Part shown: in pieces, positions 2,578 through 18,353 of the stretch
Layout of the letters: the number at the start of each line of letters is the position of its first letter
Numbering within the stretch: position 1 is the stretch's first letter
IMG/VR virus record: IMGVR_UViG_3300047319_001451
Coordinates: 1 to 34,578 of that record
Source of the DNA: a virus
Direction: 5' to 3' (one strand)
DNA length: 34,578 nt
The notes under the pieces: generated by a model
The model's input: the letters and a program-made list of their open reading frames with translations, nothing else
Told to the model about the DNA's origin: nothing
Database searches by the model: none
Position numbers and translations under genes: made by a program

Positions 2578-2864
2578 TCGCCGGCCTCCTTCACGCGGGC
2601 GGCGACCTGGCCGCGGGCCGGCAGGCGTTCGACGATCCGTTCCAGCTTGCCCTCGAACTTTTCGAGACGCATCTCCACGGCCTCGAGCTTGGCGATGGCC
2701 GTGTCGACCTTGCCCTGCATGGAATTTGCCCAGCCGGCCGCCGCCACGACGATCGTCCCGATGCCACCGCTGAGCTTACCCCAGTCCCACCCGGTGAGGG
2801 CGTTGGGACGCGTTCGACTGCGTGGCTGGTTTACCGATGCCGCGGCTGCTGGTGTGGGTGCCAT
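2574..2864 (-). CDS. Small membrane protein with coiled coil, holin-like
   Basis: The 96-residue protein starts at ATG 2864 with AAAGGA upstream. An N-terminal Ala/Pro-rich stretch is followed by one hydrophobic segment (GGIGTIVVAAAGWANSM, about residues 35-52) and then a strong heptad pattern (KLEAVEMRLEKFEGKLERIV), ending in a basic tail. One membrane segment plus a coiled coil and a position immediately before the peptidoglycan-hydrolase-like gene fit a holin or spanin-type accessory protein. No specific family can be assigned. One copy of the dispersed 20-base GC-rich element lies 21 bases upstream of the start codon. Confidence 0.6.
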   Translation of the reverse strand: MAPTPAAAASVNQPRSRTRPNALTGWDWGKLSGGIGTIVVAAAGWANSMQGKVDTAIAKLEAVEMRLEKFEGKLERIVERLPARGQVAARVKEAGE

Positions 2865-2884
2865 CGTGGCAGGTCCTTTCGTTG

Positions 2885-2904
2885 AATTCGGCGCGCCTGC
2901 GCGC
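2885..2904. repeat. Dispersed GC-rich element, copy 1
   Basis: The plus strand reads aattcggcgcgcctgcgcgc. The same 20 bases occur at 13745-13764 and 34454-34473, and with one change at 15885-15904, all in the same orientation. In minus-strand RNA it reads GCGCGCAGGCGCGCCGAATT, able to form a short GC hairpin. This copy sits in the 5' leader of the holin-like gene. Confidence 0.8.
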
Positions 2905-2910
2905 TTGGAA

Positions 2911-2995
2911 AACGAAAAAGCCCCCGGCGAAAAGACACGGGACTCCATTCGGTGAGCTGATCACCGGAGGGCCTGTGTCTCGACGCCGGGGGCTT
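2911..2995 (-). terminator. Strong intrinsic terminator with nested hairpins
   Basis: A perfect 12-bp stem (2918-2929 with 2984-2995) is followed on the minus strand by a T-rich tract (GCTTTTTCGTTTT). The 54-base interior holds two further nested stems, 2933-2938 with 2975-2980 and 2950-2955 with 2961-2966. It would end the transcript of the small genes upstream and separate them from the lysis genes. A promoter for the lysis genes is then needed, but none is obvious. Confidence 0.75.
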
Positions 2996-3096
2996 CCTAG
3001 GACGGCCACCTTTGTATGGCTGAGGAGACGCGATTCAGGCGGGGCAATCCGTGCCTCAACTGAACCGTCGCAGATCATACTCGGCTTTTGGAATTG

Positions 3097-3273
3097 TCAA
3101 GGGGAATTTTTATTTTGTGCCACGGCCGCCGCCAGGGCCAGCGCCACGGCCTCGCCAGCGATCTCGACCATTACGACGAACTGCCGCTTGTGACGCGGCT
3201 TGCGACGAACGTCGATCCGCAGTGCCCCGATCTGATGGGGCTTGCCCTCGGTGACCGTAACGCGGCGCTTCAT
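3097..3273 (-). CDS. Small basic hypothetical protein (58 aa)
   Basis: ATG at 3273 with GAGGT just upstream opens a 58-codon frame starting MKRRVTVTEG and ending AAAVAQNKNSP. The N-terminal half is rich in Arg and Lys and the C-terminal half in alanine. I do not recognise the family. It lies 23 bases after the next small gene on the same strand and just before the terminator at 2911-2995. Confidence 0.6.
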   Translation of the reverse strand: MKRRVTVTEGKPHQIGALRIDVRRKPRHKRQFVVMVEIAGEAVALALAAAVAQNKNSP

Positions 3274-3296
3274 GCGACCTCGTTGTTAAATAATCC

Positions 3297-3509
3297 TCAG
3301 ACAGCAGTTGGATCGAAAGGCCGCATGGCTCTTTGGGCAGTGTTCCAATCAACCTCGTCGGCATCCTCTGGCGGGTCCGTCCGTTCGTAAACCCAAATCG
3401 GCTCATAGGGTGCGACGATCATGTATCCGTGGAAGAGCGCGTAGTGCAGGTTCTGGCAGTCCCCTGGTCCCTTCCACAGTCGCCCCAGCCAGTCGATGAA
3501 GTATTTCAC
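3297..3509 (-). CDS. Hypothetical protein (70 aa)
   Basis: I chose the GTG at 3509 (VKYFIDWLGRLWKG), with AAGGGG upstream, rather than a longer frame beginning near 3632. The longer start would overlap the neighbouring zinc-ribbon gene by over 100 bases. The protein is aromatic-rich in the middle (GYMIVAPYEPIWVYER) and acidic near the C terminus. No family is recognised. Confidence 0.6.
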   Translation of the reverse strand: MKYFIDWLGRLWKGPGDCQNLHYALFHGYMIVAPYEPIWVYERTDPPEDADEVDWNTAQRAMRPFDPTAV

Positions 3510-9337: not shown

Positions 9338-10861
9338 TCAGTCGTCGATTTGGATCTTGCGTCCGTTCTTGGCCGGCTCCTTCGCCGACACGCCGCTGTC
9401 CTTGTTGAACAGGCCTGGGTGACTTGCCGACAGAAATTTCCCGTGGGCCTGCTGGCGCAGCTTGCCGATCGCCTCGGCCGCCGACTTCGAGACAGGCACC
9501 ACGAACGCCGCGGCCTCGGCGAATGAGCACCCGAGTCGCCAGGCGATGTCGCAGCATTGACGAATCTCGGCTCCCGTCCAGCCATCGTCGGGCGGAAGGG
9601 CACCCAGCGACTTCAACGTTCTGGTTCTGATTCCAATCTGGTCGTTGAAATAACGGGCCGTCCAGATCTCCCAGATCGCGAGCCGTTCTTTCGAATCGGG
9701 CAGATCGAAAAAAAACGTCCCCAGGGTGAACCGCCGGCGCAATTCGGGAGGCAGCTCGGCAATGCTGTTGCAAGTGGCGATGAACAGCGCCTTGGAATTG
9801 CTGACCGCCGTGATCACCTTGAGCGCCGCCCGCAGTTGCTGCTCGCTCTGGCCCACGAGCGAGCCTTTCATCGCCCCCAGGTCGAGTTGGATCGTGGGGA
9901 TCCCCGCCTCGTTGCCGGCCGCCTTGGCAACTGCCGTCTTGGCGGCTCCTGGCGGCCCCAGGAAAATGCCGCCGGCCGCCGAATGGTCCTGCATGTAAGT
10001 GAGCAGGCTGCCGAGCTGATCCTGACCGACGCCGCTCATGTCCCCCTTCGCGCCGGCCATCGCCTTCTCGATTTCATCGATGAACACGATCGCGTTCGGC
10101 CGCCCCTGGCCCGCGAGAACGCGCTGCAGAAATCCTTTGACGACATCGCAGCCGCCGATCCCATCGAACCGGTCGCCCCCGCGGAAGATCTTGAGGCCCG
10201 GCGTCTGTTCGACTTGCTGCCGCTTGCGTTCCCAGAGGGCGTCGACGTCGATCCCCTTCCGACGCAGAGACATCGCCGTGATCTGCTCGGCGCTGAAGGC
10301 CGACAGGCCGCGGAGCGCCTCGATCGCCTTCTCGTTTCCGCCGTCCGGGGCCTCGAGTTCGGCCGCCTTGTATTGGCTGAGTACGATCGCCTCGAGCTGC
10401 TGCGAATCGGGCAGCGGTTCGTCGAAGCCCATGACGTCGTCCGACAGCTCGATCGGCATCTTGCCGGCCTTCGAGAGCAGCACGAGCATGCGGTTGTTGT
10501 TCTTGAACGGGTTCCTGAGATTCCAGACCGCCTGCAGCAGCACAGGTTCGGCCAGCCACCGATCCGCCAGATGGATGAACAGCAGCGAGCGCTCCGGCAG
10601 TTCCAGCGCCGCCTTGAGCGCCTCGAGCGGGTCCCCCTTGCCCCGTTCGTCGTTCTCTTCGGTCAAGACTTCGACCGCCTCGAGCCCGGGCTTATTGCGG
10701 CCGGTGAAACCGCGGACGATATCCCATTCCAGTTTCGGCAGTTCGCCGGCCGTCCCCGCGCACAGATCGTGGATCGTTTGCCACGGGTCGGGCGTCGCGA
10801 TTGAGACCAGCGGCACCGATCGCCGTATTGCCGAATGAATGTCCTGCAGCAGTGTCGACAT
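9338..10861 (-). CDS. Ycf46-like AAA+ ATPase with rearranged core motifs
   Basis: The protein has 507 residues. The N-terminal about 240 residues fit the Ycf46 type: RRSVPLVSIATPDPW, LLFIHLADRW, VWNLRNP, MPIELSDDVMGFDEPLP and GLSAFSAEQIT. The ATPase core is unusual: the Walker B stretch AIVFIDEIEKAMAG (encoded near 10055-10095) comes before the P-loop GPPGAAKT (encoded near 9935-9965), while sensor 1 (FIATCNSIAELPPELRRRF) follows in its normal place. The P-loop has Ala in place of the last Gly. A ribosome binding site (AAGGAA) precedes ATG 10861. It likely acts as a ring ATPase with the DUF1257 and DUF2997 proteins; the role is unknown. Confidence 0.8.
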   Translation of the reverse strand: MSTLLQDIHSAIRRSVPLVSIATPDPWQTIHDLCAGTAGELPKLEWDIVRGFTGRNKPGLEAVEVLTEENDERGKGDPLEALKAALELPERSLLFIHLADRWLAEPVLLQAVWNLRNPFKNNNRMLVLLSKAGKMPIELSDDVMGFDEPLPDSQQLEAIVLSQYKAAELEAPDGGNEKAIEALRGLSAFSAEQITAMSLRRKGIDVDALWERKRQQVEQTPGLKIFRGGDRFDGIGGCDVVKGFLQRVLAGQGRPNAIVFIDEIEKAMAGAKGDMSGVGQDQLGSLLTYMQDHSAAGGIFLGPPGAAKTAVAKAAGNEAGIPTIQLDLGAMKGSLVGQSEQQLRAALKVITAVSNSKALFIATCNSIAELPPELRRRFTLGTFFFDLPDSKERLAIWEIWTARYFNDQIGIRTRTLKSLGALPPDDGWTGAEIRQCCDIAWRLGCSFAEAAAFVVPVSKSAAEAIGKLRQQAHGKFLSASHPGLFNKDSGVSAKEPAKNGRKIQIDD

Positions 10862-11705: not shown

Positions 11706-12257
11706 TCATGCCGGATCTTTGTCGGGCGGATAAGACGCGTTGATGCGGTCCCGCGCCGCCGGATACTTGTCCATTTCCTTTTTCAGTTTGGCGAACGACT
11801 CGTCCGACGTTTCGACGCGCGGGGGCTCGACGAACTCCCACACGAAGCCGGCGTGTGGCTCCCAGTCCCACAGACCCTGCTCTCCGCGGAGCGGAATCGG
11901 CCGGACCAGCCGCCGCGTCCCTTCCAGCTTCCAGCCCCAGCGGTGCGGCAGATAATTTCCGAGCAGCCGTTCCTGCGCCGGGATTGACCTGGCCAGCGTC
12001 TCGGAACGGGCCACAGACGCCAGCTTCGAGACGGCGATCGCGAATCCGAACGGCATTTGATCGACCCGCGTGATGCCGTGTTTCAGGAGCAGCGACTTGA
12101 TCGGCTCGGACCAACATTCGCGGATCATGCCAGATCCCTTGCCGGCATGAATCACGATCGGCCCGTGGTAGTCGGGCCGCCAGCCTCGAGTCTCGATGTG
12201 CTTTTCACCGAGCGCGATCAGCGTCGCGAACGGCTGCAGGATGGTGAGAACTTTCAT
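11706..12257 (-). CDS. ASCH-domain protein
   Basis: The 183-residue protein starts at ATG 12257 (MKVLTILQPFATLIALGEK) with GGAGGCG upstream. The opening LQPFA.LI..G.K.IETR.W...Y.GPI.IHA matches the ASCH beta-barrel fold found in many phage proteins, related to PUA and EVE domains that bind RNA or modified nucleic acid. The later WGWKLEG..RLVRPIPLRGEQGLW is the second half of the barrel. The C-terminal 40 residues are helical and basic. The start overlaps the stop of the replication-like gene as ATGA. The substrate is unknown; it may act on modified bases. Confidence 0.78.
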   Translation of the reverse strand: MKVLTILQPFATLIALGEKHIETRGWRPDYHGPIVIHAGKGSGMIRECWSEPIKSLLLKHGITRVDQMPFGFAIAVSKLASVARSETLARSIPAQERLLGNYLPHRWGWKLEGTRRLVRPIPLRGEQGLWDWEPHAGFVWEFVEPPRVETSDESFAKLKKEMDKYPAARDRINASYPPDKDPA

Positions 12258-13444
12258 GGCGACGCCTCCGCGTTTGCCTGGCCCGCGAACCGCACCGGAA
12301 CTCTCTCGGCCAGACGGCAGAGCAGGAAGTCCCGCATCCAGCCTGACGGCGGCCACTTCGATCCGTCGCGACGCCAGCGGGCAATCTGGAACGCCGCCCC
12401 TTTCCCAATGACGCCGCCGATGAACTCGAGCGCCGCCGCCTGGGGGACGGCGTCGAGCTCGGGACCGAAGTCGAGCTCACGCTGCCGATGAACCGCCCGG
12501 GCCTGGTTCTGCCGTTCGGCCGCCAGACGGATCCGTTCCTCTTCGGCGGCGGACGCCGCCAGCCAATCGGCCGCCTCGCGCTGCCGATCCGCCTCGGTCT
12601 GCTTTCCCTTTCGCGGCGCGGGCCAGTGTTCGCTGACCGACTGCCGGGGCCACGCGTTGAGCAGGCGGAACCGGAGAGCGCCCGATGGGTTGTCCCAGGC
12701 CGATCGGTTGGCGACCGCCCAGGCCAGCAGCTCGCGGACGAAGCCGGCGTCGCAACCGTGATCGCGAGCCGCCTTGACCGATCGCGCCGAGTCCCCCAGG
12801 GGGAAGGCCGCGATATCCATTTCGAGCGCTAACCATTCGCGCGCTGCGGTAGCGCCGGCGCTGGCAGCTTCCGGAGGAGGAGGTAATTTGTAAACAACCT
12901 CCTCCTCCTTTGAAGCTTCAATCCTTATTATGCGAGAGGCCAAGTTGACCTCTGAACTCGAAATTGAGAGGCCAAGTTGACCTCTCAATTTGGCCGGTTG
13001 AGAGGCCAAGTTGACCTCCGAATGACCCGTGAACCCGGAAGTTGAGAGGCCAAGTTGACCTCTCAATTCGGCCGCCTCCGAGCCGCCGGCCTCCTCGCCG
13101 GGTTCGCCATAGACCGCCGACCAGATCTCCGGCCAGCGGATCGTGTATTTGTTGGCCCTCGTCAATTTGGTCCGCCTGGCCACGTCCAGGAACTTGAGCG
13201 CCTTGGAATCGGCGACCGCCCGTTTGACGGTGCTCTCCGAGACCTGCATCTCGCGGGAGAGCGTCGCCAGCTTCAGCCAGCAGACGGAGCCCTTGTCGGC
13301 GTGATCGTCCAGCACGCGCAACAGGTGCTTGACGTTGGGCGGGGCCGCCAGCTTCCGGAGCGCCTCGCGACGCCGCTGGAATTGCAGGAACTCGCGCTGC
13401 AGCCGCGCCGGCTTGTGCCCCTGGTCCCCTTCGCGTTCGTCCAT
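12254..13444 (-). CDS. Replication-initiator-like winged-helix protein containing an intragenic repeat array
   Basis: The 396-residue protein starts at ATG 13444 (MDEREGDQGHKPARL) with AAGGGGAAAA upstream. Residues about 35-105 form a winged-helix domain (LAAPPNVKHLLRVLDDHADKG, then LATLSREMQVSESTVKRAVADSKALKFL), the arrangement of phage replication initiators and plasmid Rep proteins. A linker of about residues 125-185 carries the alternating peptides RGQLGLS and EVNLAS, which are the translations of four copies of one 19-bp DNA element read in two frames. The C-terminal part is helical and charged and ends WRRDGSKWPPSGWMRDFLLCRL. As in phage lambda O, the origin may lie inside this gene. 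Replication function is inferred from the domain and the repeats. Confidence 0.6.
   Translation of the reverse strand: MDEREGDQGHKPARLQREFLQFQRRREALRKLAAPPNVKHLLRVLDDHADKGSVCWLKLATLSREMQVSESTVKRAVADSKALKFLDVARRTKLTRANKYTIRWPEIWSAVYGEPGEEAGGSEAAELRGQLGLSTSGFTGHSEVNLASQPAKLRGQLGLSISSSEVNLASRIIRIEASKEEEVVYKLPPPPEAASAGATAAREWLALEMDIAAFPLGDSARSVKAARDHGCDAGFVRELLAWAVANRSAWDNPSGALRFRLLNAWPRQSVSEHWPAPRKGKQTEADRQREAADWLAASAAEEERIRLAAERQNQARAVHRQRELDFGPELDAVPQAAALEFIGGVIGKGAAFQIARWRRDGSKWPPSGWMRDFLLCRLAERVPVRFAGQANAEASP
12873..12908. repeat. Perfect 12-bp inverted repeat with AT-rich centre
   Basis: ggaggaggaggt at 12873-12884 pairs with acctcctcctcc at 12897-12908 around a 12-base AT-rich loop (aatttgtaaaca). 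It lies 26 bases from the iteron-like array, inside the initiator-like gene, where its minus strand encodes a Glu run and a Pro run. It could extrude a hairpin or serve as the unwinding region of an origin. Confidence 0.6.
12934..13062. repeat. Array of four 19-bp palindromic iteron-like elements
   Basis: The plus-strand sequence gagaggccaagttgacctc occurs exactly at 12934-12952, 12966-12984, 13000-13018 and 13044-13062. Spacing is 32, 34 and 44 bases, near whole numbers of DNA turns. The core is a near-palindrome, AGAGG-c-CAA-g-TTG-a-CCTCT, and copies 2 and 4 extend to longer palindromes (12962-12990 for copy 2). All copies lie within the coding sequence of the winged-helix protein, in two alternating reading frames. 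This is most like initiator-binding iterons of a replication origin; operator sites for another protein are the alternative. Confidence 0.8.
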
Positions 13445-15375: not shown

Positions 15376-15413
15376 TCAAAAACTGCCGGGGGAATTTCCC
15401 GCTCCCCCGGCAG
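15376..15413 (-). terminator. Intrinsic terminator overlapping the 3' end of csrA
   Basis: ctgccggggg at 15383-15392 pairs with cccccggcag at 15404-15413, an 11-base loop separates them, and on the minus strand the stem is followed by TTTTT immediately before the csrA stop codon. The terminator therefore encodes the last residues of CsrA (NSPGSF). Confidence 0.7.
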
Positions 15414-15615
15414 CCCCAAGGACGGCCGCCGCTGTCGCCTCCGCGACGCGGCCATCACGCAATTCCTCACGCACGATGTTGAACCGATCCGAGGCCTCGA
15501 TCCCCAGGCGGGAACTGTTCGGCCCGACGCGAATCTGCACAAGCCGAATCACCTCGCCGGTGAGTTTGTCCTCGATCAGAATTCGCTCTCCCGGCTTCCT
15601 CGTAAGCACCAGCAT
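15376..15615 (-). CDS. csrA: CsrA-family RNA-binding translational regulator
   Basis: The 79-residue protein starts MLVLTRKPGERILIEDK, the hallmark of CsrA/RsmA. It continues with IRLVQIRVGPNSSRLGIEA, matching the beta strands that bind GGA motifs, and VREEL near the end of the core, where the C-terminal helix and the conserved Arg and Glu lie. The last 20 residues are an Ala/Gly-rich extension encoded over a terminator. CsrA dimers bind A(N)GGA in mRNA leaders to block or alter translation. A consensus AAGGAGG precedes the ATG at 15615. A phage copy could regulate host genes or phage messages; many leaders here contain GGA within the Shine-Dalgarno. Confidence 0.92.
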   Translation of the reverse strand: MLVLTRKPGERILIEDKLTGEVIRLVQIRVGPNSSRLGIEASDRFNIVREELRDGRVAEATAAAVLGAAGGAGNSPGSF

Positions 15616-16777: not shown

Positions 16778-17035
16778 TCAGGCAGATTTTTTCCGCCGGC
16801 GGACGGGGGGAGGCTGGAGCAGATCTTCGACCGTGGCCCCGACCGCCTCAGCGATCCTGGCCCCCATCGCGATCGACGGCAGAACGTCGCCGCGGACGAT
16901 CGGATAAATGGCCCCAGGAGACATGCTCAAGCGCTTCATGAGCCAATAGACCGATTGGCCGTGAACCGAGAGCAGACGCTGCACGTTGGCAGAGATGTTG
17001 GCTCGAGCTTCGTCGTCCGTGATCACGATTGACAT
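16778..17035 (-). CDS. XRE-type helix-turn-helix repressor (cI/Cro-like)
   Basis: The 85-residue protein starts MSIVITDDEARANISANVQ. Residues about 15-70 form an XRE helix-turn-helix domain: LLSVHGQSVYWLMKRLSMSPGAIYPIVRG, with recognition helix in MSPGAIYPI, then PSIAMGARIAEAVGATVEDLL. The C terminus is basic (VRRRKKSA) and there is no cleavage or dimerisation domain, as in small Cro-like or single-domain repressors. Matching operators flank the gene on both sides, at 17045-17060 in its own promoter and at 16746-16761 in the promoter just beyond its stop. It is likely the lysogeny or early-gene regulator and autoregulated. Confidence 0.82.
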   Translation of the reverse strand: MSIVITDDEARANISANVQRLLSVHGQSVYWLMKRLSMSPGAIYPIVRGDVLPSIAMGARIAEAVGATVEDLLQPPPVRRRKKSA

Positions 17036-17204: not shown

Positions 17205-17381
17205 CGGTAAATGAGAGTCCGGCAGCAGCCGGCCGATCCGCAAATTATAGCCGGACGGCCGGCACAAATCACGCAGGCCGCGTGACCTGACCACGGAGCG
17301 GGAGGAAAAGCGCTCAGGGATGGGCGGCTCCAAGGGACTGCAATTTAACCGCCGCCGCGAACGCGACAGAATGAGCCCTTG
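17205..17381. other. Intergenic attachment flank
   Basis: Between the tRNA fragment and the integrase gene there is a 7-bp inverted pair (gtccggc near 17217 and gccggac near 17248) and GC-rich sequence that could hold integrase arm sites. I see no gene here and no convincing plus-strand promoter. Confidence 0.4.
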
Positions 17382-18353
17382 ATGATTCGCGGGCTTGACA
17401 CGGTTCGCCGTGTATTCGAGTCGCTACGCCTCGGCGATTCGATCGCGGACTCGACGTCTGCTCTCCGTCGATTCGAGCTGCAGCGTTGGGAACGGTTGAC
17501 GTCGGACCCTGAAATCGGTGGCATCAGCCTGGAGACGCTGAAAACGTTTCAGTGCCGGGCCAGACGCTCCGGGCTCGCGCCGGAAACGGTCGAGACGACG
17601 ATCAACACGGTGATGCACGTCCTGAACGCCGCCCACGAAGAGGGGCGACTCGAGCGCGTGCCACGCCGGCCGCCCCGCAGGAAGGGAGACCCGAGCAAGA
17701 CGGCACGGATCAGCCTGAGCGACTTTGACGCGTTCCTGGCCGCCATCCCGGCCGCGGGGCTCTCGAAACGCCGCGGGCCGGAATGGTGGCAGGCGTTCTG
17801 GGGCACGATCTTCTTCACGGCCCTCCGGCTGGGCAATATGGAAAAGATCGAACGCCGGCAGGTCGCGTCCGAAGTGATCGAAGTTCGGCAGCTCAAGACG
17901 GGCCACATCGTGCGGATCCCCGTCCACCCGGTGCTGCGCCGGCTGCTGAGGTCGCACGCCCAGAAAGTCCGCGGTCGCCGGCTGTTTCGCCTGGGGAGAA
18001 AAACGCTTTACTCTGCGACCGTCAAGATTTGCAAGGCCGCCGGCGTCCAGGGGATCACGCCGCAGGCCGTGCGGGCGCTGGCCGCCCGCACCTTCGAACG
18101 AGCCCATCCGGGAGCCGGCCGCCTGATCCTGGGCAGACCGCTGCCCGGAGCCGACGCGTTCTATTTCGACGTTCCCGAGATTCTCGAATCGGCGTGCGAC
18201 AAGCTCCGCGTGCCGCCGTCGCTGCTGACCTCGGACGAACAGGCCCGGGCGGGCAATGACGAACGGCAGCTGCTGGTCTCCTTCCGGGGGCTCGGCAACT
18301 CCGACCGGGAGACGGTCCTGCGGTTCGTGCAGTCGCTCCGGCGCACATCTTGA
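17382..18353 (+). CDS. int: Tyrosine recombinase (phage integrase)
   Basis: The 323-residue protein is on the opposite strand to its neighbours. I chose ATG 17382 over the TTG just before it. Residues about 15-100 look like a SAM-like core-binding domain. The catalytic domain has Arg149 in FFTALRLGN, Lys172 in RQLKTGH, Arg231 in TPQAVRALAART and a probable nucleophile Tyr261 in ADAFYFDVP. The positions normally held by His in HxxR and LGH are Gln228 and Arg252, so the catalytic set is degenerate. The nearby tRNA-Val fragment is the expected attachment site. The ribosome binding site is weak. Confidence 0.72.
   Translation: MIRGLDTVRRVFESLRLGDSIADSTSALRRFELQRWERLTSDPEIGGISLETLKTFQCRARRSGLAPETVETTINTVMHVLNAAHEEGRLERVPRRPPRRKGDPSKTARISLSDFDAFLAAIPAAGLSKRRGPEWWQAFWGTIFFTALRLGNMEKIERRQVASEVIEVRQLKTGHIVRIPVHPVLRRLLRSHAQKVRGRRLFRLGRKTLYSATVKICKAAGVQGITPQAVRALAARTFERAHPGAGRLILGRPLPGADAFYFDVPEILESACDKLRVPPSLLTSDEQARAGNDERQLLVSFRGLGNSDRETVLRFVQSLRRTS

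Follow-up and report, generated by a model that had tools for sequence, protein, structure and literature searches.

A candidate replication origin built from four palindromic iterons inside the initiator gene of a temperate-looking tailed phage

The window analysed here is an IMG/VR virus contig of 34,578 bases. At 12254-13444, on the minus strand, it carries the gene for a 396-aa protein (ATG at 13444), which consists of an N-terminal winged helix, an iteron-encoding linker and a C-terminal part. The winged-helix domain (HTH_36; 13211-13336, minus strand) scores 26.5 bits, above the curated cut-off, with residues 38-77 of the protein matching the profile at E=5.6e-5. Furthermore, the N-terminal region matches phrog_270 'replication initiation protein' (1e-5) and phrog_391 'replication initiation O-like' (1.2e-5), and a further profile match of the initiator has a value of 5.1e-8. 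An initiator-type winged helix is present, and the profile match is limited to the N-terminal part, the C-terminal part being without one. No close or full-length homologue of the initiator was found among annotated phages, viral contigs and genomes, and a PDB sequence search with it gave no match. A structure predicted for the isolated winged-helix part had a mean pLDDT of 50 and, being poor, was left out of the evidence.

Other genes of the record include an integrase (17379-18353, plus strand; phrog_1, 7e-15) and, at 16778-17035 on the minus strand, a small HTH repressor-like gene; the two suggest that the phage is temperate. A CsrA-like regulator is encoded at 15376-15615 (minus strand; Pfam CsrA, E=1.7e-12). 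An AAA ATPase gene lies at 9338-10861 (minus strand; phrog_8638), and in its product a Walker B segment (AIVFIDEIEKA...LGSLLTYMQDH) precedes the Walker A segment (GPPGAAKT). Since this swapped order is common to all eight aligned phage copies of the gene, the protein looks like a permuted AAA+ core; in a distant relative (L051) the Walker B segment is found where it normally lies, after the post-Walker A helix and before sensor 1. The predicted model of the AAA ATPase (pLDDT 77) resembles Cdc48/p97, and literature searches on an AAA core with Walker B before Walker A returned no obvious earlier description. One genome-contig match for the head protein falls on a short Elusimicrobia MAG contig and is too weak to name a host. 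Records having the same major head protein lack a matching initiator.

Within the initiator gene, just after the DNA-binding winged helix in the direction of the gene, lies an array of four exact copies of one 19-mer, GAGAGGCCAAGTTGACCTC, starting at 12934, 12966, 13000 and 13044, as an earlier note on this DNA had claimed, with copy-to-copy spacings of 32, 34 and 44 bp. Read in the gene direction, where the repeat core is GAGGTCAACTTGGCCTCTC, the copies, all taken on the minus strand, follow in the order D (13044-13062), C (13000-13018), B (12966-12984) and A (12934-12952), the last adjoining an AT-rich tract. Each iteron is an imperfect inverted repeat of ~19 bp, as in lambda, with a 17-bp core, GAGGCCAA-G-TTGACCTC, in which 7 of the 8 arm positions are paired in all four copies. 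The palindrome extends to ~31 bp at B (12961-12991) and to ~25 bp at D, and stays short (~17 bp) at C and A. Outside the four copies, the 34,578 bases contain no GAGAGGCCAAGTTGACCTC site at ≤3 mismatches, palindromic self-matches aside, and none arises in 100 dinucleotide shuffles. Elsewhere in the contigs searched, the iteron has one single-copy match, in an unrelated nuclease-like gene, which we take as chance, and no contig holds two linked copies. As a separate observation, L040 contains dispersed TAACAAGTA repeats at 2842-3322, a region without obvious gene. The earlier note had also put the copies on almost one and the same face of the DNA; taken over the whole array this does not hold, the cumulative phases being 0/17/103/171 degrees at 10.5 bp per turn (R=0.40).

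The repeats are kept in two reading frames, as had likewise been proposed: D and B are translated as RGQLGLS, and C and A as SEVNLAS. Conservation of a linker peptide, instead of the DNA, could be read into the occurrence of two peptide types, each found twice, yet one 19-bp sequence encodes unrelated peptides in the two frames, and synonymous-codon shuffles of the gene (n=5000) did not reproduce the array, their 12-mers and 17-mers reaching at most 2 copies against the 4 observed. These two observations refute the peptide motif as an account of the array as a whole, the two reading frames already excluding it, and we give it next to no credence. The four copies also have a history. D-C and B-A resemble a duplicated pair, with 78 bp from D to B and 66 bp from C to A, the 12-bp difference falling in the spacer; the cores of the two units are identical at 19 of 19 positions, and their flanks and spacers differ by substitutions and by this 12-nt length change. 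Because of this resemblance to a duplicated 78-bp pair, the use of two frames is, as judged from the repeats themselves, one independent frame difference followed by later duplication of the pair, not four independent placements. The same resemblance would be expected of a recent neutral duplication without function. That reading explains less, since all four cores have remained identical while flanking and spacer bases drifted; it also has to accommodate the identical 19 bp that D and C hold in different frames, and repeats at the same place in most comparable initiators, so that we consider it extremely unlikely. That the cores are preserved exactly nonetheless indicates that it is the DNA that is conserved.

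The DNA next to the array is the weakest of the record. A nearest-neighbour energy scan of the whole 34.6-kb record puts the least stable 60 bp at 12878-12937 and the least stable 100 bp at 12884-12983; the weakest stretches of both lengths thus adjoin or overlap the array, and 12878-12937, a candidate DNA-unwinding element, lies directly downstream of iteron A in the gene direction. A perfect 12-bp inverted repeat with a 12-nt AT-rich loop, noted before and found to be real, occupies 12873-12908, downstream of the iterons as in the lambda origin. Its arms are GGA-rich, and because an equally strong repeat occurs in 31 of 2000 codon shuffles, on its own it is modest evidence. The minimum of the GC skew falls at 16.8 kb, away from the array, and is confounded by gene orientation.

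A weak promoter-like match, TTCAGA-18-CATAAT (12927-12956, minus strand; 1 found against 0.1 expected), overlaps iteron A and the AT-rich tract. It bears on the possibility that the repeats are operators through which the winged-helix protein or a phage repressor regulates the early operon, without origin function, as does the fact that a palindrome recognised by an HTH dimer is a typical operator. One would expect operators to stand in front of a gene, however, and no site at ≤3 mismatches precedes the initiator gene, the repressor gene or any other; the sites are instead in the middle of a gene, adjoining the weakest DNA, as in the lambda origin. Operators therefore explain less, and appear quite improbable. 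The elements might alternatively act as hairpins in the initiator mRNA, controlling translation or stability. Indeed, in the mRNA sense they fold fully with U-G wobble, at -10 to -18.5 kcal/mol, better than in the antisense. Folding as RNA is nevertheless true of any palindrome, in lambda it is as DNA that O binds iterons of this type (PMC5043065), and hairpins leave the position beside melting-prone DNA unexplained, which makes this alternative very improbable.

We favour, with a probability of roughly 0.85, the reading of the array as a replication origin that lies inside the initiator gene of a temperate-looking tailed phage and probably works like that of lambda. What tells against it is that the searches gave no close homologue of the protein, that the sites are widely spaced and out of helical phase, that no helicase-loader gene was recognised beside the initiator gene, and that the GC-skew minimum lies elsewhere. 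An origin inside the initiator, as in lambda O, was the proposal of the earlier note, and this part of it is well supported, namely by the match to initiator profiles, by where the repeats sit and the least-stable DNA adjoining them, by the lambda layout, and by homologues that keep the architecture with other repeat sequences; the contrast with lambda drawn there, and the common face, were not sustained. By analogy, initiation would proceed through initiator binding, DNA opening and helicase loading. The winged-helix protein, presumably as a dimer, would bind the four palindromic iterons in its own gene, and the resulting protein-DNA complex would strain and open the adjacent weak tract at ~12878-12937, whose far side would be marked by the 12-bp inverted repeat; the replicative helicase could then be loaded at the opened tract. 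This provides a concrete candidate origin for an uncultivated phage without close relative in the phage collection. The alternation along the array might further reflect two classes of site, long palindromes (D and B) and short ones (C and A), arranged as two duplicated 78-bp pair units with wide spacing and no phasing. This is a tentative and rather unlikely proposal; if it were true, the initiator would assemble by pairing of a long site with a short site, unlike the closely packed O-some of lambda.

The nearest relative found, L037 (IMGVR_UViG_3300005680_000058), was located through its nearby AAA gene, which is 60% identical to the one here; its initiator (12011-13279) has winged-helix homology to that of the present phage (E=2e-4). 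In both records palindromic iterons occupy the corresponding linker, use more than one frame and sit on the weakest local DNA, with the AAA gene as a shared neighbour. The iterons themselves differ: the L037 linker carries five palindromes of the form TTCCAC-NNN-GTGGAA, spaced strictly 20 bp apart and covering all three frames, in the least stable DNA of that locus, and one of these five has matching changes in its two half-sites (CTCCAC...GTGGAG). Homologues that keep the peptide and lose the DNA repeats had been named beforehand as speaking against an origin; the opposite is seen, in that L037 keeps the architecture and changes the repeat sequence.

Repeats of this kind were common in a set of 23 winged-helix phage initiators comprising lambda O, the initiator described here, L037, L063, and those of phages of Pseudomonas, Vibrio, Salmonella, Aeromonas, Rhodobacter, actinobacteria and others. 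At least three repeats (≥3 copies of a 14-mer within 260 bp) were carried by 17 of the 23 against 4 of 58 control ORFs, a proportion that is only indicative because the set was picked by similarity and is phylogenetically unbalanced. Clustered palindromes occurred in 11 of the 23 and in 4 of the 58 controls. The repeats are usually found directly after the winged helix, often in shifting frames, and the 32-44 bp spacing of the present array exceeds that of most sampled initiators. Many of the annotated phage initiators among L067-L084 have repeats just after the winged helix, examples being those of Pseudomonas phage LESphi3, Vibrio phage 1.226 and Rhodococcus phage Tonitrus. The feature tables retrieved for the L067-L084 initiator genes mark no origin at these repeats, those of lambda alone being annotated as iterons. 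Together, the survey suggests that in phage initiators of the winged-helix type the origin is usually found immediately behind the winged helix, in the form of frame-independent repeats. The rule has exceptions, since L063, an O-like initiator in a record that shares the AAA gene of the present phage, shows no clear iterons. Such a rule would make it possible to predict origins from sequence and to compare initiator-iteron specificity among many phages.

The iterons of lambda, each a near-perfect 19-bp inverted repeat, are bound by O dimers, and O bound to them opens a neighbouring 40-bp A+T-rich region (PMC5043065; PMC7466680). In lambda gene O (NC_001416, 38686-39585), the annotated iterons lie mid-gene, at 39034-39118, the gene's least stable 40-60 bp begin immediately behind iteron 4, and ~40 nt beyond that iteron comes an imperfect inverted repeat. 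Both systems have a winged-helix protein with an initiator profile match and, midway along its gene, four imperfect inverted repeats of ~19 bp, and in both the order is iterons, weak A+T-rich tract, inverted repeat. The earlier note had presented 'different, palindromic iterons' as a contrast to lambda. Being palindromic is no difference, since the lambda iterons are themselves imperfect palindromes (PMC5043065; PMC7466680); among iteron properties, only sequence and spacing set lambda apart, the sequences being unrelated and the spacings 32/34/44 bp here versus 20/24/23 in lambda. Unlike in lambda, long and short palindromes alternate here, the C-terminal part of the initiator is unmatched, and no P-like helicase loader was recognised among the neighbouring genes tested, most of which have no assigned function. 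Iteron plasmids of the P1 RepA and F RepE type also have repeats for an initiator beside an A+T-rich tract, the binding being presumed in the case of this phage; plasmid iterons, however, are mostly direct repeats, bound by monomers and helically phased (PMC5043065), whereas the sites here are inverted repeats inside a gene. The locus is a well-supported candidate for a lambda-O-like intragenic origin, which would be a new example of a known arrangement, not a new kind of system.
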